DNA of 64,000 nt. Origin: Membranipora membranacea (Eukaryota > Bryozoa > Gymnolaemata > Cheilostomatida > Membraniporidae). The notes under the pieces are model-generated. The model saw only the letters and a program-made list of their open reading frames with translations, made no database searches and was not told the DNA's origin. Both the position numbers and the translations under genes were made by a program. The DNA is taken from the NCBI GenBank assembly GCA_914767715.1, contig OU612065.1:36146001-36210000 (forward strand), written 5' to 3'. Positions 1,031-38,143 of the stretch are shown here, one piece after another (position 1 is the stretch's first letter; every line of letters begins with the position of its first letter).

Positions 1031-1171
1031 TATGAGAACACTAACCAGTATAGAGGAAGTGAGCATATCCTGGAATAGGAATCTGAAATCCTTACCAGAC
1101 CGGATTGGAGAACTCACAAGTCTTACGAAGCTATATGTGTCTGGTTGTGACCTCACTCACCTACCTAACAG
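1031..1171 (+). CDS. LRR cassette exon (class B)
   Basis: A 141-nt exon, acceptor TTACAG, donor GTATGT, phase 2 at both ends, 47 residues making two LRRs. It starts S-MRTLTSIEEV and ends CDLTHLPNR. Variable residues at the predicted beta-strand surface are SISWNRN in repeat 1 and YVSGCD in repeat 2. It has the unusual DRIGE where most copies have DWIGE. Same acceptor type as 12298 and 16955. Confidence 0.75.
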
Positions 1172-22100: not shown

Positions 22101-25100
22101 GAGTAGCACTCGTTCAGAATATGAGTATCATATTGTGATAAAAGAGTCTCAGAGAGTTATCTATAGTTGAGTGTCCTATCAGACACCTACCTGAGAGGTA
22201 ATTATATACTGAGTCACTCGGGACTAAGATGACTGTATGTGGATATCAGATCAGCATACTTTTCTACACACAAGTCCCTGACTTTGTATTCTGATAGAGG
22301 CTTATGCTGAGGCTGGGCAACATCGAAAGATATTTTTACCTCAATCCAAATACCACTAAGATTTCGCATTGAAATGGTGAACAAAATACCCGCTGCCTGA
22401 ATAAACTTCTAGATAAGTTGACAATTCATAAGGTCAATAGAATTTAATTTTTATTTTTATTTACTCTCCTTGTTGCAGCATGAGAACACTCACCAGCATA
22501 GAGGAAATGGATATATCCTCGAATATGGAACTGAAATCCTTACCAGACTGGATTGGAGAACTCAGGAGTCTTAAGAAGCTAAATGTGTCTAAATGTTGCC
22601 TCACTCACCTGCCTAACAGGTACATAAACATTATGATTTCATGATTCCCAATATTAGTTCTTACATCAATATCTTCATTAGTGATCAAATCACTCTAAAT
22701 GTGATTTCAGATCTGTCAAAGGTAGTTTACAATTTTGGTAGGTATAAAACTATGTAAAAACCTTTCTGTCTTAATACTTGGCATCCTGTTTGAGTTTCTG
22801 ATAAAAGAGTAGCACTGGTTCAGAATAGGAGTATCATATTCCGATAGAATTGTAAGCAGTATTTTCATTCCTATTACACATTAAAAATTTGGCATAGGAA
22901 AAGTAGGAAGCAGCTTCTCTATATTACTCTGGGAAAAGCAGTATAACCTTGTTCTGAGCCTTCTATAGATATAATGAGTGTTCTAATGCCACTATGGGTT
23001 GTAGCTAAAATATGTACGTAAATACTCAAAATGCTCCACTAAACGAGATAAACCTGACAGCCCAACTCTAGAATTAAATGGTGTGGAAATAGATTGTTGT
23101 GACAATGTTAAATATTTGGGAGTACTCTTTGATAACAAACTACGTTTCAAAAATCATGTCAATAATGTCAATTTTTTTTTTTAATTGGATATAAATTAAA
23201 AAGTCACTAAAATAACAGAAGCAACATTGTTGCAAATAAATAGTCTGGTTGCAGTGTACTTGGAAAATAACAAGCTTTATTAAATACACCCAAAATTGAT
23301 TTGAGAAACTAAGAGACACTTTGTGATCAAGATACTCTGATATCATAAACTGGTAGTATTCACAAGTCGAGAGAACATAACAAATAACTATTAAGTGTGC
23401 GATAGTGTCACAACATATATCTCAAACATGTTAACCTCTTTTTGGCCGTAGTGCCTTGTAAGTATATCATTTGATCCCAGAGGTTTATCCCTGAAATTGT
23501 TTGTGATGCATTCATAATAGTCATAATAGTCATAGTCATAGTCATAATAGTCTGAACTCTGCCAACTTTAAGTATGAGCAAGGATTCAAACTGTTCCCAC
23601 AGACAAGATTTCCATTTTCAATGCTGTATCTTAGTTTCAATCTGTGAGAAATTCAGCTTCAGTTATAATGAGTAGGAAGCAATTTGTATGCCCACTTTTA
23701 AAAGACCCAGCGAGGGGGCGTGGGGATGCAAGTTAACATCCAGAGATCGAGTCCACTACATTTGAGAACATAGTTATTCTCTTATAAGTCAGGCAAGGCA
23801 GTAGAGTAATGTGTGGTCGATTTCATTGCTCAGAAATTATCTATCCCCTTGAGTTAAACCTGCCAATCCATCCTAGGTTGCCGATGGTCTTATGCATAAA
23901 TTTTCTATTTATCCCCTTGAGTTAATCCTGCCAATCCGAGGGTGAGGGTGTGGATGCTCTTAAGCCATGGCTACATGAGCCGATTTTTACATCGATTTGG
24001 GGTCACGAGTGGTTAATCGGGGGATCTGCACGAGTGATTACTGGTGTCAAGTGGACATCGAACTTGTTGGTCTTTTGCCAGAGTGATCTGGACGATCCTC
24101 TATGCTGATTGGTTGTTGATTGCTTGCTTCAATAATTACGCGGTTAAACACGTCCTCGATCAAATCGTGACAGGCTATCAAAAATGGAGGAGTTGATAAT
24201 ATCTGTAGTAAAATCACATCCTCCTATTTATGATAAAAAAGACCATAACTACAAAGATAGGAGTGGTGCTGTAGTGAAAATATGGAAGGTAATAGCTGTA
24301 TCACTTGGAAATGGAAGCTGTCCTGACATGACATCCATAGTATAGCATAGGAAAATCAATTTTACAGAAGACTGACATTTTATTTGTTGAAGATTCAAAG
24401 TGACAAAGACCCGGATTTAATATGACATCTATATCCCGTCATTTGTTAACACGCCCATTAAATATCATTGGTCAATCGATTGAACTGAGGGAGTTCATTG
24501 GTCAATCTAGGCACCTGATTTATTACCCCTCTATGACTCACTAGACCATCATGTACTAACTCATAGGCCTGTGTAGCAGTGTGAGATCGGCTGAGCATGT
24601 CTAGACATGCCATCGGCCTGTGATTACATCGTCACGTGGAGCTACAGCTTTATGCTTAAATTTTCTTTCTGGTGGAAACTACCAGTTGTGTTGGTCTTTG
24701 GGACGGGGCGTTAGCATAAATCTATGTTTTTGTGTGCTTTTACCCCAGTTTGAAACTGTAACAGTTTTTACAAAAAAATTATCCTTTGATAATCAATTGC
24801 ACTCAGAAATGATGGTGGTGAAATATTCACCTCAAAATAGACAAAAAATGAACGCAGTCAACATCAAATAACTCGTAACTTAATGTATTAGATTTGAATT
24901 ATAATTTTTTTTTTTACAAAATTTCCCAAAATTGATACTTCTTATAATTGAGATTACTTACAAATTTAGCAGTAGGAAACCAGATAATATACAAATCGGA
25001 TTATATATACTTATAAGCTCGTATTTGTGTATTAGAGAGCATAAAACATCTTAATCTCACCTAGTTATTATCCTTGTTGCAGTATGAGAACACTAACCAG

Positions 25101-28100
25101 TATAGAGGAAGTGAATATATCTGGGAATAATGATCTGATATCCTTACCAGACTGGATTGGAGAACTCACGAGTCTTAAGAAGCTAAATGTGTCTGCATGT
25201 GGCCTCACTCACCTGCCTAACAGGTAAGTAAATATTATGATTTCATTTTTCTCAATAATAATTCTTACATCAGTGTCTTCATCAGTGATAAAATGACTCT
25301 TCATGTGATTTTAGATATGTCAAAGGTAGTTTACAATATGTTTATAATATCATTTAAAACTTTGATACTGGTAGGTATAAAACGATGTAAAAAAATTTCT
25401 GTCTTAATATATGGCATCCTGTATGAGTTTCTGATCAAAGGGTTGCACTTGTCCAGAATACAAGTATCAAAAATCATAAAAGTTGTAAGCAGTATTTTCA
25501 ATCCTATTACACACCAAAGATTTGGCATAACAAAGTAGGAAGCAGAAAAAAACCATCAAAGTTCCTTCGAAGGAAAAATTGCTTAGTTAAGGGTAGAAAT
25601 TATTTTGTTTCTTCTAAATATTGATGCTAGTCATCGGATATTTACAGGCAATATCTGCCTGGTACACATATTATGTGCTGTTTTACTGACCAATGCATAA
25701 TTATGAAAAGTGACGCATGGGACAAAATGCAATAATGTCACATTTAATGAGACAAAATGTTTTATTGTCCAGTAAACACTACCGATATCCCACAACAGGC
25801 CTAATCCCATCACAAAATATATTTGAAAAGAGTTTGTTTGCTCCCTTCAGACTTGGATGTGAGATCTAATGAAAAAAAAACGGGGTGTTTTATTAGGCTT
25901 AAAATTGTTGCCATAAAGCTACTATCAAATTTATTTAATTTTGTTCAATTTCCATAATTTGTCGCAAAGAATATGGTAGAACTCTCAACCAGTCAAAAAT
26001 AGATATGATTTTCTAGTTTTATTTTTGTATTTATCAGTATGACAAATATAATGAGAACGTGATTTACTGTTCTGTTCCGCGTCCTGCGCGTCACAGCTGG
26101 CAGATCGATAGTGTGATATATTACGATAAACACAACAAGATTAGATAAATGTGTGTTACACCACATTATTCTATACATCCACATCATTTGAAATAAAAAA
26201 ATATCGATCTCACTGTACCTTAAGTTCAGTAGTAATAATACAAAGTCAGCATTTTTTGTGAGATTTCTGTCCCGTGTGTCACAATATAATTTCACTTTAG
26301 CCATAATCCTAAATTTTGTGACAAATATTCTGTTAGAAGTTGTTTCCAATGCATAACAGCTTAGATACCTGTATTAGCCTAATGTTTCCTTTCAGTTTTA
26401 CGATTTTAAACAGAACCAAACTTTCTTTCCCAAGCGTCACGTCCCAGGCGTCACAGGTTGGAGGCAACTTTCACGGCTAATCATGGCTATCACAAAATGA
26501 TGCGGAATTCTTTTGTTGTAGCGTTTTCACTTCCTCATTAGAATGAATCAAAGGTTTTTCTTTTAACAGCATCTCTATTTCAGAAGAGACCATAATTATG
26601 CAAAGTATCACCATATTTTATGAGTTTTCTGGTCCTGGTCCATCACAACACTGAAAAGGCTCTGTAAACTTAAAGTTGTTCTTGAGTATGTATATGGGTG
26701 GAACAGATGTAGCAAACTAACGCTTTCCTCATTATACATATACTAAACATACAACATTGACCTGATGTTGCGAATGTGCTGTCCGTCACACCCCCTTAAA
26801 ATTGGCCTGGCCCATTTTAGATAATTCAAAGATAGTTTACAATTATTCAAAAGGCTATATGTTTATAATATCATATCATTTAAAACTTTTATACTGGTAG
26901 GTATAAAACTATCTAAAAATGTTTCTGTCCTAAAATTTGGCATCCTGTGTGAGTTTCTAATAAAAGAGTAAAGACTAAAATTGTAAGCAGTATTTTCAAT
27001 CCTATTACACACCAAAAATTCGCCATAAAAAGTAGGAAGCAGTTTCTCTCTATTACTCTGGGTAAAGCAGTAAAACCTTGTCCTGAGCTTTCTATAGATA
27101 TAATGAGTGTTCTAATGCCACTATAGGTCGTAGCTAAAATATGTACCTTAATAATTAAAATGCTTCACTTTCTCAATAGGTTGGCTTTTTATAAAAAAAG
27201 ATAATCATAAATAGCATATGTTCTGCTATAAAGATCAGCACCATCTCCCTTGTTATCTAAGCATTGATTGTTAACTGATCTGCACTGGTCTGAAAATTGT
27301 TTGGCTACATCAAAATAAAATTCTTCATATTTTTTTAAGTCTCACAATAGCCCTGTCATCAGATAATACAAAAATTTGACATTGTCATGTCCTGAGCAAA
27401 TTAAATCTGTGTATATAAAAAAAGCACTTGTGATAAAACACACCCTTGAGGGTACCCTATATTAAAAGATTAAACATCAGGTTTACTGTCACCAACTGGA
27501 ACATGTTGTTGCCTATCGTCAAGAAAGCCCAAACCCCAAACGGTTAGTTAGAGATAATATATATTTGCACATTACGGTCTCTTAGGTTATCTCATATAAT
27601 ATTTGGCACAATAGTAGTAAAAGCTGATATGAAATAAATATACATGAAACACTTTAGCATATGAACTTGGATTCTCTAAATGTGATCCTATATGGAGTGC
27701 AAAGAAATACAAGCATCCGTAGTGCTGCTGTCTTTCCTATATACAAATTGATTATTATCCAAAGATAAGATGTGTTAAGAAGTGTTGGATCTCAGCTAGA
27801 TTTTAAAGGCACCTGATTGGTCAACCTCAACATAATATGTCATCACTAATGGTGGATGGCTGGAGAAGAAGATACTCCTTACATTTTGAGAGCTCATATA
27901 ACTCCATTCAAAGCTACTGGCTAGATGTTTTGATGCCACAACTCTCTATTTAAATTTTTGACTGGTGGCACTGCTGGGCAAGGCCCAGCTGTGTCAGCAG
28001 TGGTTTAAGGGCAATTGGACAGAAATATATCGATTATACCTAATGTTTACGGTTATCGCTTCTGGTCGGTAGTGGCAGCAATTGATTTTTGTTATTTTGG

Positions 28101-31100
28101 GATATATATCATTTCTAAAAATACTGAATCACAATTTGAAATAATTCTCAGAGTCAGTCAGTCAGATTCAGTCTATGTGAGACCGCCTCTAAAATCAGTA
28201 ACATAATAGAAGCAGCTTTGTTATCCAGATACAGTCTAGTGGAAGATTACTGGAGAAAATCTGTCTTCTAATATACTTTTTTGACCTATTTAGCTGGAGT
28301 TTGAATGCCATTTAAGGCCAACAAAGGCCATTCTCTAAGACAAAACACAATGGAAAAGAAACAAAGGAGGAGAATTTTTTGTTTAATTTTTTTTAATTAA
28401 TTTCTTTGCTGGTGAATATTTGCCTGTTCAGCTGTCTTCAGGACACCTTTTTTATCATTTACCTTATATCGGCTTGTTTCCATAATAATCAAGGAATTTG
28501 AAAATTGTCAATTAGTTGGAAAGGGCTTTAATCTCGTTCAACTATCAGTGTGCTAATGCAACATCAAGACAAATATCCTAAACGCCTTGCACTGACTTCG
28601 ATCAGCGCAAACATCATCTGCATCAGAAACCAATGAGATAACAGTGTCCTCTTAATAAAGAGAGGAAGCCTGTTGAGAGCCAGAATACAACAATATAATA
28701 TTGATTTATCTCATTGCCTTTTTTATATGGATTGTTACGATTCACACCATTCTTGCGGCCAACTTCTTATTTGTCTAGAAAGTAAGATCACTACTTAGGA
28801 ACTTATTAAATTATGTCTGAAAATTCTTAATCATGATTGGAATTAATTCTCATCCAATTTTAGTCAGATATATGTCTATGTCTGTTAGTCTATGCGATAC
28901 TGCCTTTAGAAGTCTTTTTGGCGATTAGAGAAAAATATCACAGGCTACATAAAATATACCCAATAGTGATTCGGGTACACTGATATCACGAATTGGTAAT
29001 ATTCATTAGTTGAGAGGATATAACAAATAACATGCAAATGAATAAAATCTGGTGAAATTGCCCTCTGTGCCACCCTTCTCCTAATTGTTCAACTGGTTCT
29101 ACTGATAATAATTGTGTAAACACTGTGTTAAGTCTGAAATATTGGCGATTTATAGAGGATTCAACAACAAAAATGATGAATGAGCTCCTTAAAACATCAA
29201 ATATTGGAATCATGAGCAGTTAACAATTCAAGATGACAAATGCTCTGGTGAAACAATAATATGATACATCTGTTTGAGATGTCCTGTTACCTAATACCTA
29301 ATACAGTGTGACATGACTGCTTGTGAAAGTCTGATACATGTTTACCTATTTGTTGGCCGTAGTGCCTTGTAAGTATATCATTGACAAACCTCTGCGGAGG
29401 TTTGTCCCTGAAATGGTTCCAGGTTCGCCCTGGTCGGTAGTTGATCATAAGCTGCACCAACCAAAAGGCTGGTACTTTGTGGCTCCATCGACCAAATTTC
29501 TGTCCATTCGATTGGTATATTATTCCTCCAATCTAATACAAGATAATCAAGACTGGTATCTGAACTTATTTCTCTTTTGTAGCATGTCAAAACTGGTAAA
29601 TTTGGAGAAACTTGATCTCAGAGGTAACCCCTCTCTCCTCTCAATCCCTGCTGGTGTCTGTCAACTCAGTAAACTGAAGAAAATAGACTGTGATGAATGT
29701 AACGCACTGACGAGTCCTCCATATGCTGTCTATACACAGGGGCTTGCTGCAATGAGAAAATACTTTACAGATCTGGAAGAAAATAGGGAGACGAACATAA
29801 AGTTTGTTCCAGTCACTGTTTTTGGTCAAACCATGGCCGGAAAAAGCAGTCTTGTTCGGTCAATGCAGAAAAATGAACGTGTTTTGACTTTGCGATGTGA
29901 CAATAGCAAGCTAGATGAGGCTACCAAAGTGTTCAAGGTGTGCGAGGCAGAGGTCGATGACAAATACAAATTAGTATTCCATGACTTTGGTGGGCAGGCG
30001 ATTTATCAGTTTGCCTACCAATTGTCAGATAGATCCCAGTACGTTCCCATGCTCGTCATAGACATTGCTGAATTTGACCGTCTGGTAACTGAACAGGGAG
30101 AAGAAGTTGCCTGTGAAACAGTTTGTTTTCAATGGCTCTCCCACCTCTACCTTGCAAGCCCCAAGGCAGGCCCGCCATTTGTAGTGTTGACCCACTGTGA
30201 TGTTATCGATAGCCAAATCTGCGAAACTAGGCTGAGATTGCTGATAGAAGTATCAGAACGCTTACGATCAATATTATTAAAGGAGGAGAAAGCCATGGTA
30301 CCAGAGAAAAGCCCAATTTTGATCATGAAAAGTTTCCAGGATACATCCCAGCCCCTTCTCACTCATCACACACCACGCTTCTTTTACAAAGATTCTGCCA
30401 CTGAAGTAATTTGTGATCTGAAAACCTTCCTCGTGTCTATTGGATTATCGCTGCTCACAGAAATACCAGGTAGCTGGTATGTTCTGATGGAACTGTTTGC
30501 AAACAACAAGCAGCCATACCTGACGCTAAAAGAGCTAGACAAGCTATTTCCTGGTGACAAAGACCGCGTAATTCTTCAATACCTAAATGAAATAGGAACA
30601 ATCAAGTGGTACAGTAATAGAGAAAACCTATCCAATATAGTGTTCCATCGAATCGAGCTGCTCACACGCCTGATCGAGTTGCTCTACGACCATTCCAGAA
30701 AGGATACCTGGGATCAGCGGATAAAGAGTTTCCAAGCTTTTGAGGATGTGAGTCAGAATGTGAGAATAAACAAAAGGAAATACAACGACATGATTAGATC
30801 CTTCCTAGACACTGGGGTCATAAGGGATATTCTGCTACATCATCTAATCAGCCAAGAGTCTGAGGTTAGACCGGAGGTGGCAATAGAAGTATTGAAGGTG
30901 TTCCATCTGATCTGCGGTCCAGTACAGAAGGGTAGTGAGAGTCACTATGTCATCCCATACTTCAGTCCGAGAGTAATCACAGTAGAGGAATCTGGGAAAT
31001 ACATCCCTTTGAAAGTTGACATTTGTTTCAATGGATTGGCACTTCCAAGCTATGCATATGATCTGCTTACAGCAATATTTGTCAACCTCCATATCACACC

Positions 31101-34100
31101 TTCCAATCACATTGATGTCGGCTGCAACGGTGCTTGTGTTAGTGAAAACAACCGCACAATCAAGTATTTATTTCACGACCGTATTGAGAAAACCGTTACA
31201 CTTATCATACTATCACCAACAGAAGAAGTACCCACATCCTGGGACAGCCTGCTGAAGACTTTGCAACATTTGGCATCACAGCTAGAAGAAGTGTGGAAGG
31301 GAGCTCACTGGGAGGCAGTGTTTTACTGCTCACACTGTCTGCTTACCAAACAGGAAGACCCAACAACTCAGATCGATCCTGAATGGCAAAATAGAGCAGA
31401 GCGACAGTATACAGGGAAAGAAGTTTGTGTCTGCCAAACAGCTGGAGGTCGATCATCGGTTCCTCATCCATTCCTCTATCCATGTAAGTTCATCTCACAA
31501 CTTTTGTAATCTAGATCATCTGTTACTTATGATCAAAACCACTAGAATATACTATTTTTGTGCCGATTTCTACTTTAATAACTTATTCTCTTGTAACATA
31601 TTCATTTATTAGGTAGCAGCATCACAGAGGAGGGGATACATACTTTAGATGAATATATGTCAGGCCTTGAAGCGGAGAAGAGACAACTAGGTCAGTCATT
31701 TATATTCCTTATTATAACATATCAGTATCATAAACCGGTGATGAACTTTGTTAATGTAAGACGGATCACTCTGTGCATGGTTGACTATTTATACCATTTC
31801 CATTTCTTAGTGTGCCTTGATGAATGATTGAAATTCAAGATTCTTCTAAAATTAACAATCTTGATAAAAATGAATATGTTTGGCTGAATCAAGTTTTTGA
31901 ATGGTTATTTAAATTTAATGGTTAGTCAACCTGCTACTATCCACAACGCTACAGGTGTTGGAGGCATCTCCAAAGTCTCCGCAAAAGCCTTACAATCCAT
32001 TATAAGCTTTACATCTTCTTTCCAGCTACAGCCTCATCACCATCTACCCCTCCTGATGTACCACCTCCGGCTGATCTACAGACAGCACAGATAGATGAGA
32101 TTGTGGGTATGGTGAACTCAGATACAGCATTGATAACCCTGGACCCAACAACAGCCGATCCATCCGGTCCTCACTTTGCTACTCAGGTAAGAGTTGTACA
32201 CGAGAATATAACAGTTTGTTGAAACCTATCCCTCACAGAGAAAATAGAAATGAAAATGCATAACACTGGAAGCAGCAAGCCAATCAGATCTTTGAAATTC
32301 TGCAGAAGTCAGCATACTATATCATTATCTGTACAAGTGTTTATGTAATTTGCAGAGGGTTTACGAAATGTCTGAAACTCGTGGAAGAGCTCTGATTTTA
32401 TCAAACTCATACAACAACACGAGAGAAGGGTCAGCTCAAGATTATATGAATATTAAACAAATGCTTGACAAGTTCGGATTCATTACTGTAGGAGGTCACA
32501 AAACCTACACTGCACAGGTAATCGATCTGCATTGCTACTCTGTAACATCATATCATGCACAGCTCTTTATCTCCAAACCCATCACCATTCCAAATTGATT
32601 TTAGAGTCTCAATGTACCATATTTGTCCTCTCTAAATTTAACACACACAACATATATATTTTATATTTAGAACTGTTTTGAATCAGTATTGGCGTCATTG
32701 ATAATTTATAGGGACAAGGTTATTCAAGTAATTAGGTATTTGAAAGCTGATTGATCTCAATTTATGCGACACAATCACTGAAAAGTTCTTAAAAATTTGG
32801 CAACAAAACAGGCAGACATCAATATAAATAACCATCCGAAATCATAATTTTTTTCCCAACCTACGCCCCACGATCTATCTCAAAAGCGGCGTTCAGGAAA
32901 GGCAGTTTATGATTGATGGTTGAGGTTTATGATTTATGATTTCCCTATATACCGCTGTCAATATTGAAATTCACTGTTGCAATAAAATCCTATGATCTTG
33001 AAGTGTGATGAGTCAACACATGGAATTCCATTCAATTACATAGAAAAGAGAGTTTTCTGAGCTCGAATTGGAGTTGTCCTCTCTCAATTTGGGTACTGTA
33101 CCGTCTGCTTTGTATTATATCTCTACAGCTTTAGAATCATTAAAAACCTAGAATGGCATGCTTTTTCAAATCATTAAGGGTTTAAGAGCTGATAAATCTC
33201 GGGTTCAGTGACAAAAACTGCGAATAATTCCAGAGAATTTGTCAACAAAATGAGCAGAAATTGATATAAACAGACAGTCAATACCAAAAAGAATTTCCCA
33301 AGCCATGTCCCCATGAAATTTCAATGGGGAAGATGCTGATTCAGAAAGATTTTTTTCTCTTTGATTAGGTTTTTTAAAGATATTCCCATTTCTGCTCCCA
33401 TTTATGCTGCATGGGGAGAACACGACTCGGAAAATAGGCTCAGATTCGAGCTGGTAAACTGTCTACTGCATTACATCATTTCAACCACTCTCTCACTCCC
33501 ACCCCCCCCCCCCCCCCACACTCACTCACTCTTTCTATTACCGTTTGTTTAGAGGATCGTCGCGGATATCAATTCAGAAACACAGCTCACAGATGGAGAC
33601 ACAGGAGAATCATTACATAAACATCTCAACTCATTTGTGCTAGTCATTACAAGTCACGGTCTTGAAGGGTCTGTATCTGGTTATGATGGTAAACATCTCA
33701 AAATCACAGAAATATTGGGACTTCTCTCACCCAAGAACTTTCCTGCTATGAAAGGGAAGCCCAAGCTTGTGATTATACAGGCTTGCGCTGGTAGTAAGTA
33801 TATTTATTTAATATTAGTTTTACCATTTTGATATATTTCTGATAAAATCAACAAAGAGACTAACTTGTTTTTAGATGTGTGAGGGGCGAAAACACACGAC
33901 CCTCGTATTGAACGTCAATTACAAGAGCAATAGGTTCCGTCCTGCACACTTCTTGTGTTTACTATATGAACGTATGATTTAAGTACTAATATTATTATAG
34001 TTGTTTTATAGTTGTTCTCTATGGTGTAATAGTATAACTGTGCAATGGTAAAATAATGTAATGGTTAGCACTTCTAAACAAAGGACTTGAATGCAACTTT

Positions 34101-37100
34101 GCAAATGTTACTCCTTGCTAATAGTACGGGACACCCCTTGCTCATAGCTCAAACAAATTAAATATCAATTAGATCTATAAACCAGACAAGATTAGCCAAG
34201 TTACAATTAAACAAGGAGTAACAGGAGTAACAGTCCCCTGTTACTCCTTGCTATTAGAGATTATGAATGCTACTATTTATGAATAACAGTAGAGAGTGAA
34301 AATCCAGTATTAATATGGCTGGACTAAAGCGCGAAATATAACAAGCGCAAAGATTAACAGTATAGCTAGCCACGACACTTACCACGAAAATGCCAATAGA
34401 ATTGCTTCTCTCAGAAATCAGGTTCAAGATATATTTGATCCGCCGCGGGAAGGTTGCAAGTGGCTGTTTTGCAATATCAAATGGACCCTCAACAACGTTT
34501 TCGACGATCAGTCGAAAGAACCAAGGACTTTTTCTTGCCTTGAACTGGAGCTTTATCAATAATTAATTGGAAGGGTTTCAACCTCGAATATTGCCTTGAA
34601 ATAAAAATTAAGATTTTTCAACAATGTGATAAACTTACCTCGCCATCAAATGAAGGTCTGCTCCTTGCTCCCTTCAGCCGGAATTCGATATACGTGATTT
34701 GAACTAGTTCAATAATTTCACCAAGTTGTTGGTTTATGTTCTTTCTTTATTTTGTGATTCAAATTAATTTGATAATTTCAACAAGTAGTTTGTTTGTGCT
34801 CTATCTTCATTGAGGGTCTCAGTTTGAAAATTAGTACTCTGTCAGAGGGAATCAAAAGTGTACTACTCCTTAGCTATCCCTAAGATGAGCTGCCGCTTGC
34901 GTTTTCTGCAGTTCTTTATAAAGTCATATTATTTGTTGAGTTATTCTTTCTTCAGCAAGCATCACTTGACAATCAAATACTTGGATAACTGAAAATCTAA
35001 AAATTCTGAAAATCTAAAATAATCTCATCTAGTAAATTATAAAATTATTGTCGGTTGAAAGTAGAAATAAAAATCTAAAATTATGAAAATCTAAAATAAT
35101 CTCATCTAATAAATTATAAAAGTATTGTCAGTTGAAAGTAGTAACTAAAATCTAAAATTATGAAAGTAGTAAACATTGATTATATATTATGATTTCATAA
35201 AAATGTACGCGTTAACAAATATTTCCATTTAATAAAATGTAGGCTTCTATTCCGAATGATTGTACTAGTTGTAATAATTATAATAATTTATGTGTCTATA
35301 GTGAGGTGTAGTGTGGTGTATTGTAGTGTAGTGTGGTGTATTGTATTGTAGCGTAGTGTGGTGTATTGTTGCGTTGCGCAGCGGATGCTTTCGGTATCGT
35401 TTTCGTCATCGTCTCCTTCGTTTCTAGACAAAGATATACACATCCGGATTACCATGTGGAGCCGCACTTGATATTATATTGTTCAGGGGTTATGATTACT
35501 ATTTTTTGGTTATCAGTTTTACACATGGTGTTGATGCCATTTCGCATACCTACAGATGCCATACTTATAATTTTTATTACACCTCATCATCACTGATAAG
35601 CCACACCTTTACTATAGACTGTTGATGATGGGAAAACATGTTATTGGGCATAGCGGAAAATACTCTTTAGTGTTATTAACCTCGATAAACTGTTGAAGCC
35701 TATGAAAATAGATGATCAGGTCGAACTTATTTAATTCATCTTGATTTGTCACTTGGTAGGTAGAAGAGAAATGTTTCTCACAGATACGCCCTCGCCTCAA
35801 GTAACACTCAATCAAAGTCCACCTACGGTAGAGACCCTCAATCAGCCTTCTGTCTCATGTGATGAGGACAATGATGAGGAAAGCGCTGACCACATCGATG
35901 AATCACCTACTGCTGTCGCTCATAATATCTCTACAGCCGACTTTATTATCATGCAGTCAAGCTTTGATTGTAAGTTTTCAGAGAGTTGTATATGTTATGT
36001 TATGTTATATTATATATTAAATAATCAATAGAAATCCCATTCTCATGGCGAAATCCAACTGAATCCAACTTGAGTTCAAGTTGTCTCCCTATTACCAATC
36101 AGGAGATAATTCTAAGTTTTATAGATACCAAGGGCGCGAATTTACCTATTATTACCATGTTCAATAAGAGATTGATTTAGTAAGCAATTCCTGGCCAGTC
36201 ACCAAGTTTAATCCATGGTGTCATTCTGTAGGGTATTCCACTACATAGCATAAGTAGAATAATATACACAAATGAAAAAGAGTCAGATCAAAGATCTTAC
36301 TATGTGATAGATCAGCAAAGATAACACAATCATGATATGTCATGCAGTAGGAAATCAATATGTTGTGTATGTGTTAAACTGACAAGCTGACAAAACTGAC
36401 AATCTGAAACTTCATTTACATTTTTCAGCGTTTATGTCATTTCGGAGAGTTGCAGTCGGTTCAGTATTTATTCGTAGCCTGGTATCAACATTCTATAGAT
36501 ACGCTGCTACACATCACCTTGAGGAACTGGCAGCAATTGTAAGTTTTAGAGAATAGACACTACTGCTATGTTTATTAATACCCAATGCATTGGAGAAGTT
36601 TTGCCACAGACAAATAGTGTTTAATACCCACTTTGTCTGATTACGTTAACTCTTTGGTTTCGTCAAGAATGTTAAATTGCCATGCCCAAGTTTCTGAACA
36701 TGCCCCACAAGTGAAATATCTCCCTTAGGTGAACTCTGCTTGAGCTATGATATACGGTGTGTTCGCATAACACATAAATATACCGTAACTCAATGACATT
36801 TAGAAATCCATTTTTATCCTCAATAGTATCTCAGTTCAGTATTTCACATTGAGATACCGATTTTGCTAGATCAAACTCTTCAATTTATCCAAGAAGAGTC
36901 ATGTATTGGCTGGCTGGCATCCCAGGCATTTGGTCTCATAAACTAAGCAAGAAATAAGTTTGTTCATAAACAACTAAATCAACGCTTAATAACGCTAAAA
37001 TTATTTTCAAGAAAATAACAAGTTGGTTGATTTCAGGTCTCAAAACCTTTTTTTAGGAAAAGACCAGTACTAGTTCGTACCTCACACTTATATATATGTG

Positions 37101-38143
37101 GTTATTTACAAAATTCTACAACTATGATTGAATTAACAGGTCAGAGAGGTAGTGGCTAAGGCTGGGACTAAGAGAACAGAATATCTACTGAGGACCCGGA
37201 CGAATCCAAGGAGCATTGTGAAGGCTCATCGTGCCTCAATGCCGCAGACTAGGTGTACTTTCCTGGGTAATAAGTTCTATCTGCAGCCTGGTATCAATAT
37301 GAGAACAGAGGACCACCCAGAATTCCTGAGACATCCTGTGCTACCCAATCCTACTTCTACGAGGATTAAAGAACTACCAGGTAAATACAAACAGCTGCAT
37401 CATAGAGGAGAATCTGATGATGTTCACGCATCAAATCCTCACCCCTGGTTTCCTGGTCTACTGGCGATTCAGAAAACTCTTCTCATGTCCTCATGCCCCC
37501 CAAATCAATTATCCTCCTTGCGTTGTAACTATTGCCCCTTCATCCCACAAAATTTGGTCAACTTCTGGGGAAATACGTCCAAAATTAGAGCAAATTTTAT
37601 CAGCATAGTATGGCATAGTTGAATTATTAAATATAAGATTCTTGTAAGTCATCACAAATTGATGTAGTTTGTAAAGAGATGGCTTCTTTTTCTTGGCAAG
37701 GGTCTAGCCATTGTTAACTGCACTGACCTGATTTGGGGTATTGGACTTCTACAGCTTCTCTGTACGCCCAAAATTGTGAACTAATGTTAACTGAACTAAA
37801 ACATGATTCCAAACTGGAAGTTGAACAACAACAAAATCACCTCGGCTCCAATAAACAACATATTACTTGGGCACTGTGTTTTGGTGTTTAACACTGGAGA
37901 TGTACATACCCTAATTATATAGGTAAGAAAAGCTTCAGAGAACTCTTTTCAGAGTCCTAAATACTCCAAAACAGAGCTATATAGGGCATTTCCCATACAT
38001 CAAAATAAGCTATCAATTCCATATCCTAAACAATATATACCATCTGATTTCTTTCTTTAGACAAGATACAATCAGTCACAACTGGAGGGAAGGTGGAGAC
38101 AACAACTTATTACCAGTGGTTAGTTGAGAAGAACACACAATGA
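1031..38143 (+). CDS. Multi-exon gene: LRR array - Roc - COR - caspase fusion (gene model)
   Basis: Model joining the intact LRR exons (1031-1171, 4866-5006, 8096-8236, 10028-10168, 12298-12438, 14697-14837, 16955-17095, 18520-18660, 22479-22619, 25083-25223) to the nine 3' exons (29583-31483, 31613-31690, 32026-32186, 32356-32517, 33553-33793, 35760-35969, 36429-36538, 37140-37380, 38061-38143). Every junction is GT-AG and every phase agrees. The LRR exons are phase 2/2 and the Roc exon begins in phase 2, so all LRR exons can splice to it in frame. The domain order suggests a ligand-sensing LRR, a Roco GTPase switch and a caspase effector; this role is inference. No first exon, signal peptide or promoter is visible, so the 5' end probably lies upstream. 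How many LRR exons are used, or whether their use varies, needs transcript data. Alternatively, part of the array belongs to neighbouring truncated paralogues. Joining of the nine 3' exons is much more secure than joining to the array. Confidence 0.7.
1172..2594 (+). other. Intron of repeated modules
   Basis: No gene seen. It contains modules shared with other LRR introns: about 1400-1700 (recurs near 17340-17620, 18720-18940, 23160-23400), a CATAGT microsatellite at about 1808-1843, and a block of about 480 bp at 1970-2440 that recurs near 4230, 7600, 9385, 14065 and 17895. It ends with the usual class A pre-exon module and a TTGTTGCAG acceptor. Confidence 0.6.
2595..3489 (+). pseudogene. 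LRR exon split by an insertion
   Basis: An LRR exon begins normally at 2595 (MRTPTSI) and breaks off at about 2616. Coding sequence resumes at about 3372 with DEVNISGNNDL and runs to a normal donor after 3489 (CGLTHLPYR). About 755 bp of foreign sequence lies between. The residues after the break are otherwise good LRR sequence, so the damage looks recent. I cannot exclude that the halves come from two different cassettes. Confidence 0.6.
2617..3371. mobile_element. Insertion with irregular GGTAC repeats
   Basis: The insert starts CACTGTAAAAAC, a terminus-like sequence. For about 300 bp it contains many GGTAC or GGTACA motifs at irregular 10-30 base spacing, some in inverted pairs (for example around 2745-2785). 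The remaining 430 bp shows no repeat and no convincing ORF. No clear terminal inverted repeat or target duplication was found. It is probably a non-autonomous DNA transposon. Confidence 0.45.
3490..4865 (+). other. Intron of repeated modules
   Basis: Typical LRR-array intron with no gene seen. A short internal duplication lies at about 3590-3665, where the TTTACTTCAGTGTC block meets the usual CTGTCAAAGGTAGTTT block. It ends with the class A pre-exon module. Confidence 0.5.
4866..5006 (+). CDS. LRR cassette exon (class A)
   Basis: A 141-nt phase 2/2 exon; acceptor TTGCAG, donor GTACAT (weaker than the GTATGT of other copies). Starts S-MRTLTSIEEV and ends CGLTHLPNR. Variable surface residues are IISWNRN and DVSRCG. 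It has KYLPYWIGE where most copies have SLPDWIGE. Confidence 0.7.
5395..5545 (+). mobile_element. LINE fragment (reverse transcriptase C-terminal side)
   Basis: The frame reads SPTLELNGVEIDCCDNV then RYLRVL, matching the conserved stretch after the RT catalytic core in CR1/jockey-like LINEs. A longer, better version lies at 22980-23165. The start of the shared block (TATAATGAGTGTTCTAATGCC) also occurs near 27105. Too short to be functional. Confidence 0.5.
5624..5757. repeat. Near-perfect hairpin (inverted repeat)
   Basis: Left arm 5624-5682 and right arm 5699-5757 are nearly reverse complementary over about 59 bases. The loop is 16 bases (GCGTGTTTTTTGGGGT). Arm core: GGACTTACATGCC against GGCATGTAAGTCC. 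It belongs to a longer repeat (to about 6185) also present at 345-840 and is probably a MITE-type element. Confidence 0.75.
6186..7449. mobile_element. 1.26-kb imperfect palindrome (foldback element)
   Basis: The ends are CAGTGGCAGCC and its near complement GGCTGCCACCG. Inverted similarity continues inward through both arms, for example GCAATGGTTATGATGTACAT at 6286 against its counterpart near 7330-7352, and GTGGATCTACAAGTTTACAT at 6624 against 7190-7212. The arms converge on an unpaired centre at about 6830-7010. The left arm holds about 180 extra bases (6361-6540). The termini resemble hAT-type ends, but I found no 8-bp target duplication. No transposase ORF. Confidence 0.65.
8096..8236 (+). 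CDS. LRR cassette exon (class A)
   Basis: A 141-nt phase 2/2 exon, donor GTATGT. Starts S-MRALTSIEEM and ends CGLTHLPDR. Variable surface residues are DISRNME and DVSECG. The N-terminal half is almost identical to the 12298 exon, which suggests exchange between the two exon classes. Confidence 0.75.
8237..10027 (+). other. Intron of repeated modules with simple repeats
   Basis: No gene seen. Low-complexity ATC/ATTACT repeats at about 8799-8900 interrupt the module. From about 9205 the sequence is the left end of a 3.3-kb block duplicated at about 13880-17192. A block at 9385-9850 is the common 480-bp intron module. Confidence 0.55.
8799..8900. repeat. ATC-rich simple repeat
   Basis: Irregular tandem units based on TACTATCAATCATT and TTCTATCAATC. 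Present only in this intron copy, and absent from the equivalent positions near 10720 and 15390. Confidence 0.7.
10028..10168 (+). CDS. LRR cassette exon (class A)
   Basis: A 141-nt phase 2/2 exon; acceptor TTGCAG, donor GTATGT. Starts S-MRTLTSMEEV and ends CGLTHLPVR. Variable surface residues are NLHGNEN and NVSDCG. It has IPLPDWIGVL instead of the usual SLPDWIGEL. First exon of a three-exon block (A, poly-G class, B) that is duplicated at 14697-17095. Confidence 0.72.
10169..11159 (+). other. Intron of repeated modules
   Basis: No gene seen. Shares over 90% of its content by eye with 14838-15819, as part of the 3.3-kb tandem duplication. It ends at the acceptor of the poly-G class exon. 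Confidence 0.5.
11160..11313 (+). pseudogene. LRR exon with frameshifting poly-G tract, copy 1
   Basis: The acceptor (TTGGACAG) is intact and the exon starts in the array's phase: S-ITTLINSEIMTLEN, then LETLPDGIG. A G tract (G's with one A) follows, and the other half, LKGLRELSIVECPIRHLPER, ends in a normal GTAATT donor. The exon is 154 nt, 13 longer than 141, so as written the second half is out of frame and a TGA is reached soon after. Homopolymer length is error-prone in sequencing and in replication, so the frame could vary. Confidence 0.6.
11314..12297 (+). other. Intron between poly-G class and class B LRR exons
   Basis: No convincing gene. Open frames at 11492-11728 (-) and 11826-12026 (+) recur at 16151-16387 and 16485-16685 only because this intron is duplicated; neither resembles a known family. 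It ends with the class B acceptor TTGTTACAG. Confidence 0.5.
12298..12438 (+). CDS. LRR cassette exon (class B)
   Basis: A 141-nt phase 2/2 exon; acceptor TTACAG, donor GTATGT. Starts S-MRALTSIEEM and ends CDLTHLPNR. Variable surface residues are DISRNIE and DVSLCD. The frame happens to stay open through the donor into the downstream LINE, giving a spurious 478-residue ORF; the exon ends at 12438. Confidence 0.75.
12538..13880 (+). mobile_element. Truncated LINE: reverse transcriptase domain
   Basis: Open to the stop at 13735, this reads as a non-LTR RT. In order it has NGKAPGIDELPAEF, LPKKGDLSKTTNWRGITLL, EEQAGFRSGRSCTDHIFTL, FIDFRKAFDSIHRESMWK (motif A), GVRQGCVISPLLF (motif B), YLAYADDVALFS (catalytic YADD, motif C) and LLYGCETWRMT. 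After 13735 the C-terminal tail continues out of frame (RRWRYLGHSLRRKE) and stops at about 13880. The endonuclease and the true 3' end are both missing, so it cannot move. The style is RTE/CR1-like; I do not assign a clade. The ends abut array intron sequence with no poly-A tail. Confidence 0.85.
14697..14837 (+). CDS. LRR cassette exon (class A)
   Basis: A 141-nt phase 2/2 exon; acceptor TTACAG, donor GTAAAT. Starts S-MRTLTSIEEM and ends CCLTHLPDR. Variable surface residues are DIYGNEE and YVGNCC. It has DWIVEL where others have DWIGEL. Duplicate partner of the 10028 exon, from which it differs at most surface positions. Confidence 0.73.
14838..15819 (+). other. Intron of repeated modules
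   Basis: No gene seen. Duplicate of 10169-11159. Ends at the intact TTGGACAG acceptor of the poly-G exon. Confidence 0.5.
15820..15973 (+). pseudogene. LRR exon with frameshifting poly-G tract, copy 2
   Basis: Same structure and same 154-nt length as the 11160 exon, but the tract here is an uninterrupted run of G. Acceptor, donor and both flanking LRR halves are preserved. The 13 extra bases again put the second half out of frame. Confidence 0.6.
15974..16954 (+). other. Intron between poly-G class and class B LRR exons
   Basis: Duplicate of 11314-12297. No gene seen. Confidence 0.5.
16955..17095 (+). CDS. LRR cassette exon (class B)
   Basis: A 141-nt phase 2/2 exon; acceptor TTACAG, donor GTATGT. 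Starts S-MRALTSIEEV and ends CCLTNLPNR. Variable surface residues are DIAQNDE and NVYQCC. Duplicate partner of the 12298 exon, and it differs from it mainly at the surface positions. Confidence 0.75.
17096..18519 (+). other. Intron of repeated modules
   Basis: Collinear with 1172-2594. Contains a short ATAGTCAT repeat at about 17730-17770 and the 480-bp module from 17895. Ends with the class A pre-exon module. No gene seen. Confidence 0.5.
18520..18660 (+). CDS. LRR cassette exon (class A)
   Basis: A 141-nt phase 2/2 exon; acceptor TTGCAG, donor GTATGT. Begins with C instead of T, still completing a Ser codon. Starts MRTLTSIEEV and ends CGLTHLPNR. Variable surface residues are NISWTKE and DVSKCG; the usual Asn of the LRR is Thr here. 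Confidence 0.75.
19272..19414 (-). pseudogene. FLYWCH-like zinc-finger fragment
   Basis: Read on the minus strand from ATG at 19414: CHKPGGRKMLFQGFSY, then TERSDTNISIFWVCS. This fits the FLYWCH pattern, with hydrophobic-Leu-Phe, Gly-Phe-x-Tyr, and Trp-x-Cys after about 13 residues. The second Cys/His part is missing because the frame runs into array intron sequence at about 19297. FLYWCH domains occur in MULE-type transposons and in some DNA-binding proteins. Assignment rests on the motif only. Confidence 0.4.
19738..20227 (-). pseudogene. Possible minus-strand two-exon coding fragment, unknown
   Basis: Two overlapping minus-strand frames (upper 20227-20020, lower to 19738) join in frame if a 34-nt GTAAGC...TTTGCAG segment at about 19979-20012 is removed: WFTNMPLVDICG, then GLNEGGRSISVFFTAFM. 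The joined frame is Cys- and Tyr-rich. I do not recognise it. A 34-nt intron would be extremely short, so a frameshift in an old transposon ORF is the main alternative. Confidence 0.22.
20395..21310 (+). mobile_element. Decayed LINE (endonuclease end plus reverse transcriptase)
   Basis: Several frames carry LINE motifs in the right order. IVGDINIDLNPEK at about 20412 matches the end of an APE endonuclease. LDLNISDQQFL at about 20602 matches its SDH region. KKPWMTKQLF at about 20800 matches the linker before the RT. SKAFDTINHSVLISK at about 21031 is RT motif A, and FFADNTG at about 21275 is the YADD box changed to FADN. Many stops and frameshifts are present. CR1/jockey-like, and clearly dead. 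Confidence 0.7.
21348..21461. repeat. Minisatellite of about 14-bp units
   Basis: Tandem copies of GGCATTATGGCCAT with variants (GGCATTTTGGCCAT, GGCATTTTGTCCCAAT). The repeat begins inside the LINE remnant and ends at array intron sequence. Each unit contains the palindrome ATGGCCAT. Confidence 0.85.
21744..21884 (+). pseudogene. LRR exon with destroyed splice acceptor
   Basis: The 141-nt exon frame is fully open (MRTLISIEEM to CCLTHLPNR; surface residues NISWNIE, NVSKCC). The acceptor reads TTGCAT instead of TTGCAG, so the AG is lost. Unless another AG is used the exon would be skipped; the 2/2 phase makes skipping harmless to the frame. Confidence 0.65.
21885..22478 (+). other. Short LRR intron with remnant of a poly-G class exon
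   Basis: Contains the 3' half of a poly-G class LRR exon at about 22146-22198 (LRELSIVECPIRHLPER with its GTAATT donor). The 5' half, including the G tract, is gone. The pre-exon module is also shortened: only TTTACTCTCCTTGTTGCAG precedes the next exon. Confidence 0.55.
22479..22619 (+). CDS. LRR cassette exon
   Basis: A 141-nt phase 2/2 exon; acceptor TTGCAG, donor GTACAT. Starts MRTLTSIEEM and ends CCLTHLPNR. Variable surface residues are DISSNME and NVSKCC. Close relative of the defective 21744 exon, which lies only about 600 bp upstream, so the pair looks like a recent duplication. Confidence 0.72.
22980..23165 (+). mobile_element. LINE fragment (RT C-terminal side)
   Basis: Frame reads LELNGVEIDCCDNVKYLGVL, then FDNKLRFKNHVNNV, typical of the region after the RT palm in CR1/jockey-like LINEs. 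Same family as 5395-5545 but less damaged. Ends at a T tract where array intron resumes. Confidence 0.6.
23963..24649 (+). mobile_element. 687-bp Harbinger-like element flanked by TTA
   Basis: The element interrupts an array module whose uninterrupted form reads GGTCTTATGCTTAAA. It is flanked by TTA on both sides (23960-23962 and 24650-24652), the 3-bp target duplication typical of PIF/Harbinger. The ends AGCCATGGCTACATGAGCCG and AGCTGTAGCTCCACGTGACG (the right end on the reverse strand) match at 15 of the first 22 positions. It carries a MADF ORF but no DDE transposase, so it is non-autonomous. Confidence 0.65.
24184..24345 (+). CDS. MADF-domain fragment inside the Harbinger-like element
   Basis: Short ORF of 53 residues: MEELIISVVKSHPPIYDKK, then DHNYKDRSGAVVKIWKVIAV. 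It fits the first half of a MADF (Myb/SANT-like, Adf-1 type) DNA-binding domain, with LI..V..HP.IYD, YKDR and W..IA. PIF/Harbinger elements usually encode a Myb/MADF-like protein alongside the transposase. Only the N-terminal half is present; a GTAATA sequence after IWK could be a splice donor. Probably a remnant, not a host gene. Confidence 0.6.
   Translation: MEELIISVVKSHPPIYDKKDHNYKDRSGAVVKIWKVIAVSLGNGSCPDMTSIV
25083..25223 (+). CDS. Last LRR cassette exon before the Roc-COR exon
   Basis: A 141-nt phase 2/2 exon; acceptor TTGCAG, donor GTAAGT (best donor in the array). Starts S-MRTLTSIEEV and ends CGLTHLPNR. Variable surface residues are NISGNND and NVSACG. Closest to the split exon at 2595-3489. 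It splices in frame to 29583 across a 4.36-kb intron. Confidence 0.75.
25224..29582 (+). other. 4.36-kb intron between LRR array and Roc-COR exon
   Basis: 25224-25545 and 26830-27160 are array modules. About 25546-26825 is unlike the array and shows no convincing coding sequence; the 118-residue minus-strand frame at 25993-26349 is not recognisable. 27190-27545 is a minus-strand LINE remnant. 28010-28260 and 28930-29420 are strongly diverged copies of array modules, so the Roc exon once sat downstream of an ordinary LRR unit. No further LRR exon was found. Confidence 0.5.
27190..27545 (-). mobile_element. Decayed LINE reverse transcriptase fragment
   Basis: Minus-strand frames give FLDDRQQHVPVGDS, then NIGYPQGCVLSQVLFLY (RT motif B, PQGCVLSP type). 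Further on a SDDRAIV stretch stands at the position of the catalytic ADD box. Stops and frame changes are frequent. Opposite in orientation to the other LINE remains. Confidence 0.5.
29583..31483 (+). CDS. Large exon: last LRRs, Roc GTPase domain, COR domain
   Basis: Acceptor TTTTGTAG, donor GTAAGT. Starts in phase 2 as S-MSKLVNLEKLDLRGN and codes about 633 residues. Residues 1-50 are two LRRs. The Roc domain (about 75-280) has a P-loop GQTMAGKSS at 29824, switch II DFGGQ at 29983-29997, and THCD at 30190-30201 in the place of NKxD, as is usual in Roco proteins. COR follows: a winged-helix part (PGSWYVLMELF, VFHRIELLTRLIELL) and a C-terminal half (LPSYAYDLLTAIF to YCSHCLLTKQEDP). No kinase domain follows, unlike LRRK. 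The open frame extends upstream to 29338, but that part is homologous to array intron, so I start at the acceptor. The nearest known families are LRR-Roco proteins of the MFHAS1/MASL1 type. Confidence 0.88.
31613..31690 (+). CDS. Linker exon after COR
   Basis: Joins T|GT to give Cys, then SSITEEGIHTLDEYMSGLEA and EKRQL. Acceptor TTATTAG, donor GTCAGT. Charged and probably helical; it could be a short coiled linker. No recognised domain. Phases (1 in, 1 out) fit both neighbours. Confidence 0.65.
31691..32025 (+). other. Intron
   Basis: 335-bp intron, no feature seen; ends in the pyrimidine-rich TTCTTTCCAG acceptor. Confidence 0.6.
32026..32186 (+). CDS. Proline-rich linker exon
   Basis: Codes ATASSPSTPPDVPPPADL, then QTAQIDEIVGMVNSD, and ends PSGPHFATQ at a GTAAGA donor in phase 0. 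A Ser/Pro-rich hinge followed by a helix, in the position of a caspase prodomain linker. No death domain, CARD or DED is visible here or elsewhere in the gene. Confidence 0.7.
32356..32517 (+). CDS. Caspase p20, first exon
   Basis: 54 residues, phase 0 at both ends. RVYEMSETRGRALILSNSY is the first strand of a caspase fold. TREGSAQDYMNIKQML carries the Arg (codon 32422-32424) aligned with S1-pocket Arg64 of caspase-3 in the RxGTxxDxxNL context. FGFITVGGHKTYTAQ is the second strand and loop. Confidence 0.85.
32518..33552 (+). other. Intron within caspase p20
   Basis: 1035-bp intron. Two diverged direct copies of about 135 bp lie at about 32735-32875 and 33170-33310 (AGCTGAT..ATCTC to AATTTCCCAAG-like ends). 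A 17-C homopolymer followed by CACTCACTCACT lies near 33500. No gene seen. Confidence 0.5.
33553..33793 (+). CDS. Caspase p20, catalytic exon (His and Cys)
   Basis: 80 residues. Contains FVLVITSHGLEG with catalytic His at 33655-33657, then KPKLVIIQACAG with catalytic Cys at 33784-33786. The spacing of 43 residues is close to caspase-3 (His121, Cys163). The pentapeptide QACAG differs from the common QACRG only at the fourth residue. The Gln that lines the S1 pocket is kept. Donor GTAAGT directly after the active site. Confidence 0.9.
34314..34562 (+). pseudogene. Unrecognised ORF fragment inside an intron
   Basis: 82 codons without an in-frame start: ITSAKINSIASHDTYHENAN, then FDPPREGCKWLFCNIKW and FDDQSKEPRTFSCLELELYQ, then stop. 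The residue composition looks like real protein. An ATG at 34315 lies in another frame, so a one-base shift near the start would give a complete small ORF. Possible pseudogene or transposon ORF; I do not recognise the family. Confidence 0.25.
35295..35370. repeat. GTGTAGTGTGGTGTATT repeat
   Basis: Irregular tandem 15-20 base units built from GTAGTGTGGTGTATT. Lies in an intron; no coding content. Confidence 0.8.
35760..35969 (+). CDS. Caspase inter-subunit linker and start of p10
   Basis: 70 residues. A Pro/Thr-rich start (FLTDTPSPQVTLNQSPPTVE) leads into an acidic stretch, CDEDNDEESADHIDESP, with several Asp residues that could serve as processing sites between large and small subunits. STADFIIMQSSFD then matches the start of p10 (ADFLYAYS type). 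The linker is longer than in many caspases. Phases 1/1 fit both neighbours. Confidence 0.8.
35970..36428 (+). other. Intron
   Basis: 459-bp intron; nothing recognised. Confidence 0.5.
36429..36538 (+). CDS. Caspase p10, S1-pocket exon
   Basis: 37 residues: FMSFRRVAVGSVFIRSLVST, then FYRYAATHHLEELAAI. FMSFRR..GSVFI aligns with the YSWRN..GSWFI motif; the Arg at 36443-36445 matches caspase-3 Arg207, which binds the substrate P1 Asp. Donor GTAAGT in phase 0. Confidence 0.85.
36539..37139 (+). other. Intron
   Basis: 601-bp intron; nothing recognised. Confidence 0.5.
37140..37380 (+). CDS. Caspase p10, C-terminal exon
   Basis: 80 residues. VREVVAKAGTKRTEYLL continues the p10 helix. HRASMPQTRCTFLGNKFYLQ aligns with the KKQIPCIVSMLTKELYF end of caspases. 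An extra tail follows, GINMRTEDHPEFLRHPVL onward, beyond the usual caspase end. Confidence 0.8.
37381..38060 (+). other. Last intron
   Basis: 680-bp intron. Open frames run on past the donor to about 37620, and one of them (37417-37608) looks mildly protein-like, so an alternative 3' end by intron retention is possible but unsupported. Confidence 0.4.
38061..38143 (+). CDS. Terminal exon
   Basis: Acceptor CTTTCTTTAG. Codes D-KIQSVTTGGKVETTTYYQW, then LVEKNTQ and TGA at 38141-38143. The phase fits the previous exon (G|AC). No known domain. This short tail closes the protein. Confidence 0.7.

Follow-up and report, generated by a model that had tools for sequence, protein, structure and literature searches.

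A tandem-arrayed bryozoan Roco gene family predicted to carry a caspase behind its Roc-COR switch

Described Roco and caspase-activating systems

In animals, caspases are known to be activated by several parts acting together, namely a sensor, an adaptor and a protease. In the Apaf-1/caspase-9 apoptosome as well as in NLR inflammasomes, a STAND ATPase acts as the switch, and a separate caspase chain is recruited via death folds. Within a stretch of 64,000 nucleotides from the bryozoan Membranipora membranacea (positions 36,146,001 to 36,210,000 of contig OU612065.1, assembly GCA_914767715.1; referred to as the window), a plus-strand gene at 29583-38143 was analyzed, in which leucine-rich repeats (LRRs), a Roc GTPase domain and a COR domain are followed by a caspase domain. 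Bare coordinates denote positions in the window, and those prefixed with C1 refer to the whole contig. Judged from the genomic sequence, this gene probably represents a member of a tandem-arrayed bryozoan Roco family acting as single-chain receptor and executioner.

In the available portion of PMC8195603 (eLife 2021), prokaryotic LRR-AP-GTPase-COR conflict proteins are described with at least 24 kinds of C-terminal domains, caspases included. The bacterial AP-GTPase (Roc)-COR proteins resemble the bryozoan gene product in their N-terminal LRRs, Roc-COR and C-terminal effector (caspase, TIR, trypsin and others). According to the same source, several paralogues with different effectors occur per genome, whereas a caspase is the sole C-terminal effector seen in the bryozoan copies. 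Moreover, the bryozoan gene, unlike the bacterial conflict loci, bears introns, is located on an animal chromosome, encodes an animal-type caspase and comprises LRR exon cassettes; as far as its sequence indicates, it is not a member of the prokaryotic conflict systems.

Brown-algal ROCO genes, as presented in the available portion of PMC11378527, are alternatively spliced, with LRR exons that measure 72 nt, lie in phase 2 and are under selection at concave sites. Common features of these genes and the bryozoan gene are the LRR-Roc-COR order, tandem phase-2 LRR exons, variation at concave sites and candidacy as immune receptors. Differences concern the LRR exons (72 nt with one LRR in brown algae, 141 nt with two LRRs in the bryozoan), the evidence for diversification (alternative splicing and positive selection are reported for brown algae, whereas selection on the bryozoan cassettes is not firm) and the C-terminus, the brown-algal proteins being described there as ending in Roc-COR without further domains.

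Metazoan Rocos, namely MFHAS1, LRRK1/2, DAPK1 and the Trichoplax Rocos, share the LRR-Roc-COR core with the bryozoan gene. MFHAS1 ends after Roc-COR, and LRRK and DAPK proteins carry kinases, whereas the bryozoan gene carries a caspase; since this caspase follows COR in frame, the sequence does not fit the MFHAS1 subfamily of proteins ending after COR. A preliminary description of the window had listed a kinase, a death domain or nothing as the partners of animal Rocos. This list was too short, as at least 17 Rocos are reported for Trichoplax, with caspase recruitment domains (CARD) and death domains among their parts (PMC4104024, available portion).

The likeness to the apoptosome and to inflammasomes comprises sensor repeats, a nucleotide switch and a caspase effector. 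Unlike in these complexes, neither a STAND ATPase nor a death fold was found above the Pfam cut-off in the 1,061-residue model of the window gene or in 11 related proteins of Watersipora subatra (P0015, P0016 and P0020-P0028; database predictions). Based on these sequences, the gene does not belong to the systems that combine a STAND ATPase with death-fold recruitment, and the question whether it works alike is not affected thereby: it is a Roco by membership and may be apoptosome-like only in how it works.

No description of an animal Roco-caspase was found among the titles and abstracts listed in literature searches, which covered few subscription journals. The word caspase is absent from the available text of the Roco paper PMC6337361 and appears in that of PMC4104024 only as caspase recruitment domain; the bryozoan genome paper PMC13326412 contains none of the terms caspase, apopto-, immun-, GTPase and leucine. 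The novelty claimed in the preliminary description is therefore narrowed to the animal version, which is new in the literature listed. The architecture itself is not wholly new, since bacterial LRR-Roc-COR-caspase proteins (PMC8195603) and algal LRR cassettes are published, and the Watersipora proteins are already deposited in databases.

One gene encoding Roc-COR and a caspase

Splicing of the nine plus-strand exons, all featuring GT/AG splice sites and phases that agree over eight introns, resulted in an open frame of 1,061 residues comprising LRR, Roc, COR, linker and a caspase with its His and Cys. The junctions 31483/31613, 32186/32356 and 35969/36429, by which LRR/Roc/COR had previously been joined to the caspase, were reproduced. 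A large exon (29583..31483) encodes the last LRRs, the Roc GTPase (P-loop GQTMAGKSS, DFGGQ, THCD) and COR. It is followed by two linker exons, the first (31613..31690) aligning in its initial part with Watersipora (PC..[LI]T..), the second (32026..32186) poorly conserved and sharing VNSD with a neighbouring copy. The caspase part starts with the large-subunit exon at 32356..32517 (TRGRALI, TREGS) and continues with the exon at 33553..33793, which contains the catalytic His (33655-33657) and Cys (33784-33786, QACAG). An acidic, variable inter-subunit linker exon (35760..35969), two small-subunit exons (36429..36538 with SFRR..GSVFI, and 37140..37380) and the last coding exon with the stop (38061..38143) complete the model. 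All nine exons are present in the sequence; the span had to be revised as a gene: base 29583 is preceded by a splice acceptor and the ATG lies inside the first listed exon, so this exon is not the gene start. The gene is larger and is located in a tandem array.

Profile searches with the spliced translation yielded a strong Pfam match to Peptidase_C14, spanning profile positions 1-233 of 233 (E=3.9e-31). Matches below the curated cut-offs were obtained for Roc, COR-A and LRR_4, with E-values of 0.0015, 0.024 and 0.0018, respectively, for the fused protein and of 6e-4, 0.01 and 7.5e-4 for the isolated exon. A Roc-COR profile was built from 13 aligned sequences, namely the window exon and P0001-P0012 (43-58% identical), in which the Roc motif residues (P-loop, DxGG, THxD) are invariant or nearly so. 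Searched against the PDB, it matched Roc-COR of the Chlorobium tepidum and Methanosarcina Rocos (E 2.7e-15 to 6e-14). Furthermore, the best Foldseek matches of an AlphaFold2 model of the Roc-COR exon were CtRoco, LRRK1 and LRRK2 (E 7.8e-15 to 3.9e-10; among them 6hlu, 3dpu and 8e05), with COR directly after Roc and TM-scores on the query of 0.32-0.45 for the seven best matches. The Roc and COR assignments below the Pfam cut-off are considered firm because of these profile and structure matches. Roc motifs followed directly by COR accordingly place the predicted protein in the Roco family, and a complete domain with catalytic His and Cys assigns its C-terminal part, on sequence criteria, to the caspase family (C14A). 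The P-loop, DFGGQ and THCD as well as the caspase motifs SHG and QACAG named in the preliminary description were confirmed by the spliced translation, Pfam and the Roc-COR profile.

By sequence, the closest solved relatives of the caspase part are caspase-1, CED-3 and caspase-4, -2 and -9. Arg residues at two places align with caspase-1; such arginines belong to the S1 pocket of caspases. A caspase fold was predicted in one structure model, that of Watersipora P0022, for which LRRK1 and CtRoco were the best Foldseek matches and caspase-8, -3 and -9 were among the 50 matches listed. In this model, disorder is predicted for the COR-caspase linker (predicted local distance difference test, pLDDT, <50 at 835-900), as a tether would be.

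Evidence for a single chain was obtained from Watersipora subatra, which like Membranipora membranacea is a cheilostome bryozoan. Among proteins of similar length, a linker-caspase query returned five matches out of 3,422 scored candidates. The two best originated from Watersipora, and the other three were nematode and shrimp caspases with Roc absent from their listed domains. With P0015 as query, ten Watersipora proteins (P0015 itself included) and no other organism were returned from 7,978 scored candidates. The fused model and P0015 are colinear over 914 columns (33% identity), a single high-scoring segment pair (HSP) running through the COR-caspase junction and a second one covering the caspase small subunit; P0016 was aligned in a single HSP of 885 columns (29% identity). 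Both alignments extend from the last LRR via COR and linker to the caspase, and sequence conservation hence continues over the Roc-COR/linker and linker/caspase exon junctions in a second genus. Of the 11 Watersipora members, which are named 'MFHAS1 homolog' (several) or 'uncharacterized' in databases, nine have Peptidase_C14 above the Pfam cut-off. All nine retain the catalytic HG and QACxG, and eight also possess LRRs and a Roc match (at or mostly below the cut-off). Pattern searches for relatives in viral contigs and genome contigs gave 131 and 55 matches, none of which encodes a relative.

The locus could alternatively comprise two adjacent genes, one for LRR-Roc-COR and one for the caspase, which gene prediction alone has joined. 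Fusion of neighbours is a possible error of gene predictors, and two Watersipora members lack a caspase, P0021 ending at the linker end and P0027 soon after COR. Conservation across both exon junctions in Watersipora, frames and phases that remain consistent over eight introns, and the same order at all eight array loci having both parts in hand and at three loci on other chromosomes argue against two genes. Separate genes are thus deemed extremely improbable, and this interpretation was rejected in view of the colinear homologues. Because of these Watersipora proteins and the order kept at 8/8 array loci, LRR-Roc-COR-caspase is, as read from the genomic sequence, one gene encoding a single chain, in agreement with the preliminary description.

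LRR cassettes and mosaic evolution of the array

Upstream of 29583, 12 tandem plus-strand exons of 141 nt were identified in the window, each encoding two LRRs and all being phase 2-2: 1031..1171, 3349..3489, 4866..5006, 8096..8236, 10028..10168, 12298..12438, 14697..14837, 16955..17095, 18520..18660, 21744..21884, 22479..22619 and 25083..25223, the latter being nearest to the Roc exon, whose acceptor is in the same phase (phase 2). AG/GT ends are present in 11 of the 12 cassettes; the acceptor at 21744 reads AT, and this cassette is probably not spliced in. The cassette at 3349..3489 is diverged in its 5' third, with length and phase maintained. Including 200 kb flanks, 18 cassettes were counted besides partial and B-type ones, and one of the six outside the window measures 138 nt.

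The cassettes are preceded by an N-terminal exon (C1:36135430-36135658) that ends in the cassette phase and matches Watersipora N-termini (E 1e-6 and 1e-7). This exon, 17 spliceable cassettes and the nine exons together encode 1,936 residues without a stop. Residues 98-1883 of this model align with residues 44-1835 of Watersipora P0024 (29.9% identity), a match that is helped by the repetitiveness of the LRRs. In Watersipora P0023, LRRs of 24 and 23 residues alternate and form a 47-residue unit; this regularity suggests that the protein keeps successive units.

Further observations concern this upstream region. At 12260-13735, the frame of the cassette at 12298..12438 continues without a stop into a reverse transcriptase (RVT_1, E 4e-36) before the next cassette. 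B-type LRR cassettes at approximately 11160-11313 and 15820-15973 contain long G runs in the coding part, with matches in two frames; they could represent a decayed exon, a homopolymer assembly error or a length-variable switch. The N-termini of Watersipora P0015, P0023 and P0027 begin with MG...S, which may signal N-myristoylation and would then tie the receptor to a membrane. For the window gene and its neighbour, a scripted search of the upstream sequence for a first exon encoding MG...S returned 0 and 0 candidates, its filter being possibly too strict or faulty.

Variability was recorded for 11 window cassettes (the one with the diverged start omitted) at the eight x positions of LxLxxNx. 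On average, 4.75 residue types per site were observed at these LRR-consensus sites compared to 1.63 elsewhere, an excess reached by 0 of 100,000 random eight-site choices. As the eight sites were named after the variability table had been inspected, this result is descriptive and does not amount to a blind test. In the same cassettes, the ratio of the proportions of nonsynonymous and synonymous differences (pN/pS) was 1.54 at the eight sites and 0.83 elsewhere. In a set of 22 full-length cassettes from the window gene and its neighbour (26 were listed, of which three measuring 138 nt and the cassette with the diverged 5' third were excluded), pN at the eight sites amounted to 3.43 times the cassette-wide pS (bootstrap 2.93-4.00) versus 0.62 elsewhere. 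The predicted binding face of the cassettes is clearly hypervariable in sequence; for positive selection proper, the evidence is not firm.

A genome-wide Pfam search returned at least 145 Peptidase_C14 rows, of which nine map to C1 at 36.0-36.75 Mb, and the Roco-caspase genes counted here represent a lower bound for the genome. The next copy downstream, examined in a 264-kb stretch, is encoded on the same strand and comprises an N-terminal exon, LRR cassettes (eight by filter, ten by tblastn), a Roc-COR exon, a linker and caspase exons; its open spliced model measures 1,096 aa. At six further loci (36.31-36.71 Mb), the Roc-COR exon ends approximately 1 kb before the first caspase exon in 6/6 cases; this comparison left out the linker-2 exon, and for L031 and L032 the terminal exons were outside the examined stretches or without a match. 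Roc-COR was consequently observed just upstream of the caspase at 8/8 array loci. Linker and caspase exons only were seen at the ninth locus (36.006 Mb), since its upstream part lies outside the sequence examined. Outside the array, a Roc-COR exon end upstream of the caspase on the same strand was detected on contigs C3 and C10 at three of eight loci returned by the Pfam search; at the other five, the short flanks contained no such exon end. All 12 Membranipora loci examined (nine in the array, three elsewhere) retain an intact HG and QACxG.

Comparison of the window gene with its downstream neighbour showed protein identities of 92.1% (583/633) for exon 1, 48.7% (38/78) for the linker and 63.9% (221/346) for the caspase. 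Over codons 1-560, 15 synonymous differences per ~371 synonymous sites were counted (pS ~0.04). After codon 560, pS reaches 0.41 within 40 codons and then 0.31-0.74 to the end. Moreover, the linker-caspase block is 98.6% identical over 3.5 kb between the upstream and downstream neighbours, and differs in the window gene, which is located between the two. Caspases of two old, diverged types are present, four of eight array loci carrying the type of the window gene and four the other. The simplest reading of these sequences is that recombination or conversion transferred one of the two blocks, effector or sensor-switch, from copy to copy.

When the two array types were compared, the ratio of nonsynonymous to synonymous substitution rates (dN/dS) was 0.29 for the caspase (346 codons), 0.42 for Roc and 0.44 for COR, and therefore both the Roc-COR and the caspase parts are under constraint. 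A value of 2.51 for the first 46 codons (LRR end) rests on very few changes. The constraint on the caspase bears on the possibility that this domain is a tethered regulator or adaptor without protease function, comparable to FLIP-like or pseudo-caspases. In the usual caspase motif, R/Q follows the catalytic Cys. The differing residue in the bryozoan copies (QACAG, QACSG, QACLG) and the high exon-level divergence would agree with such a role; the dN/dS of 0.29, the two-place Arg alignment with caspase-1 and the conservation of His and Cys at 12/12 Membranipora loci and in 9/9 caspase-bearing Watersipora members disagree with it. A proteolytically inactive domain is hence considered very unlikely.

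Two additional features of the array were noted. Tandem 5S ribosomal DNA (rDNA) is interleaved with the Roco-caspase copies (61 in 264 kb, of which 19 are in the window on the minus strand), with arrays at 39338-63812 of the window (minus strand), C1:36018976-36076581 and C1:36185338-36212403 and units of ~1,355 and 1,370 bases. The caspase inter-subunit linker of the neighbour (C1:36262218-36262520; counterparts in L029, L030 and L033) contains a tandem GEDS repeat, and the matched length of this exon varies among copies from about 276 to 420 nt.

Proposed mode of action and meaning

Initiator caspases are activated by being brought together. Roco proteins dimerise via COR and Roc and undergo nucleotide-dependent changes (PMC6337361, available portion). 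The nucleotide-free crystal of CtRoco is a dimer, and a GDP-bound dimer was proposed for LRRK2. From Roco dimerisation, activation of caspases by proximity and the disordered linker, we infer that the state of Roc-COR sets caspase proximity. In the proposed sequence of events, the LRR tract, variable at the face that usually binds the ligand, would recognise a microbial, cellular or self/non-self signal, whereupon Roc-COR would switch between dimer or oligomer states in the course of the GTP cycle, as reported for CtRoco and LRRK2, and bring the tethered caspase domains together. The caspases would then cleave themselves in the acidic inter-subunit linker, perhaps also in the COR-caspase linker, and the active enzyme would kill the cell or mature a signal. 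One chain could in this way do the work of Apaf-1 and caspase-9, or of NLR, ASC and caspase-1. The term 'self-contained apoptosome or inflammasome' used in the preliminary description holds insofar as sensor, switch and protease are predicted in one chain; the apoptosome-like working is conceivable from this layout.

A [DE]x[ST]D motif was found before the caspase in 10/10 Watersipora members scanned (P0027, which is without that part, was omitted; the stretch scanned was wider than the linker for P0016, P0026 and P0028). Self-cleavage or the action of a kinase could take place there; since the linkers are acidic, the motif is only a lead.

Several findings weigh against a single-chain receptor-executioner. 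One of the eight array copies, L030 (C1:36412501-36420500), has a broken Roc exon, its caspase part otherwise matching, and the first coding exon or start codon of the window gene was not found. Regarding Watersipora, P0021 and P0027 have LRRs and Roc and no caspase; P0016 and P0020 stop before the small subunit, and P0020 moreover starts inside the P-loop without LRRs. These proteins are database predictions, and the gene is known here from sequence alone. The structure models are of moderate confidence (pLDDT 69.9 for the exon, 68.0 for Watersipora P0022), with low overall TM-scores. Within the eight cassette sites, pN/pS was 1.07 with 22 cassettes, the same as at the other 38 sites. Furthermore, besides the missing death fold in the 1,061-residue model and the 11 Watersipora members, the N-terminal exon is without any Pfam match; recruitment would therefore rest on Roc-COR alone.

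Bryozoans periodically degenerate their polypides, and the fused protein could be real with programmed regression of body parts as its main role instead of defence or recognition. Among the scored candidates of the two protein searches, fused proteins came from a bryozoan only, and a caspase effector suits developmental death as well as immunity. The large number of copies, the presence of two diverged effector types next to each other and LRR variation concentrated on the binding face are more reminiscent of recognition genes, and a regression role is regarded as unlikely. The receptor-executioner model can be extended tentatively, although the extension is itself rather unlikely: phase-compatible LRR cassettes might be spliced in varying sets onto Roc-COR and, together with caspase-block exchange near codon 560, allow sensor and executioner to diversify separately. 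The family would then parallel, in an animal, the LRR-ROCO genes of brown algae and would in addition contain a death protease, with a possible use in defence or colony self-recognition.

If the receptor-executioner reading is true, a single-chain receptor with a Roco GTPase replacing the STAND ATPase would make induced proximity testable in one polypeptide, and Roco proteins, i.e. the family of LRRK2, would gain a clear enzymatic read-out for the GTP and dimer cycle. Moreover, an effector layout reported from bacterial conflict systems would also be present in an animal. Finally, in view of the cassette array, it may be asked whether exon choice is a means of diversifying intracellular receptors in some invertebrates.

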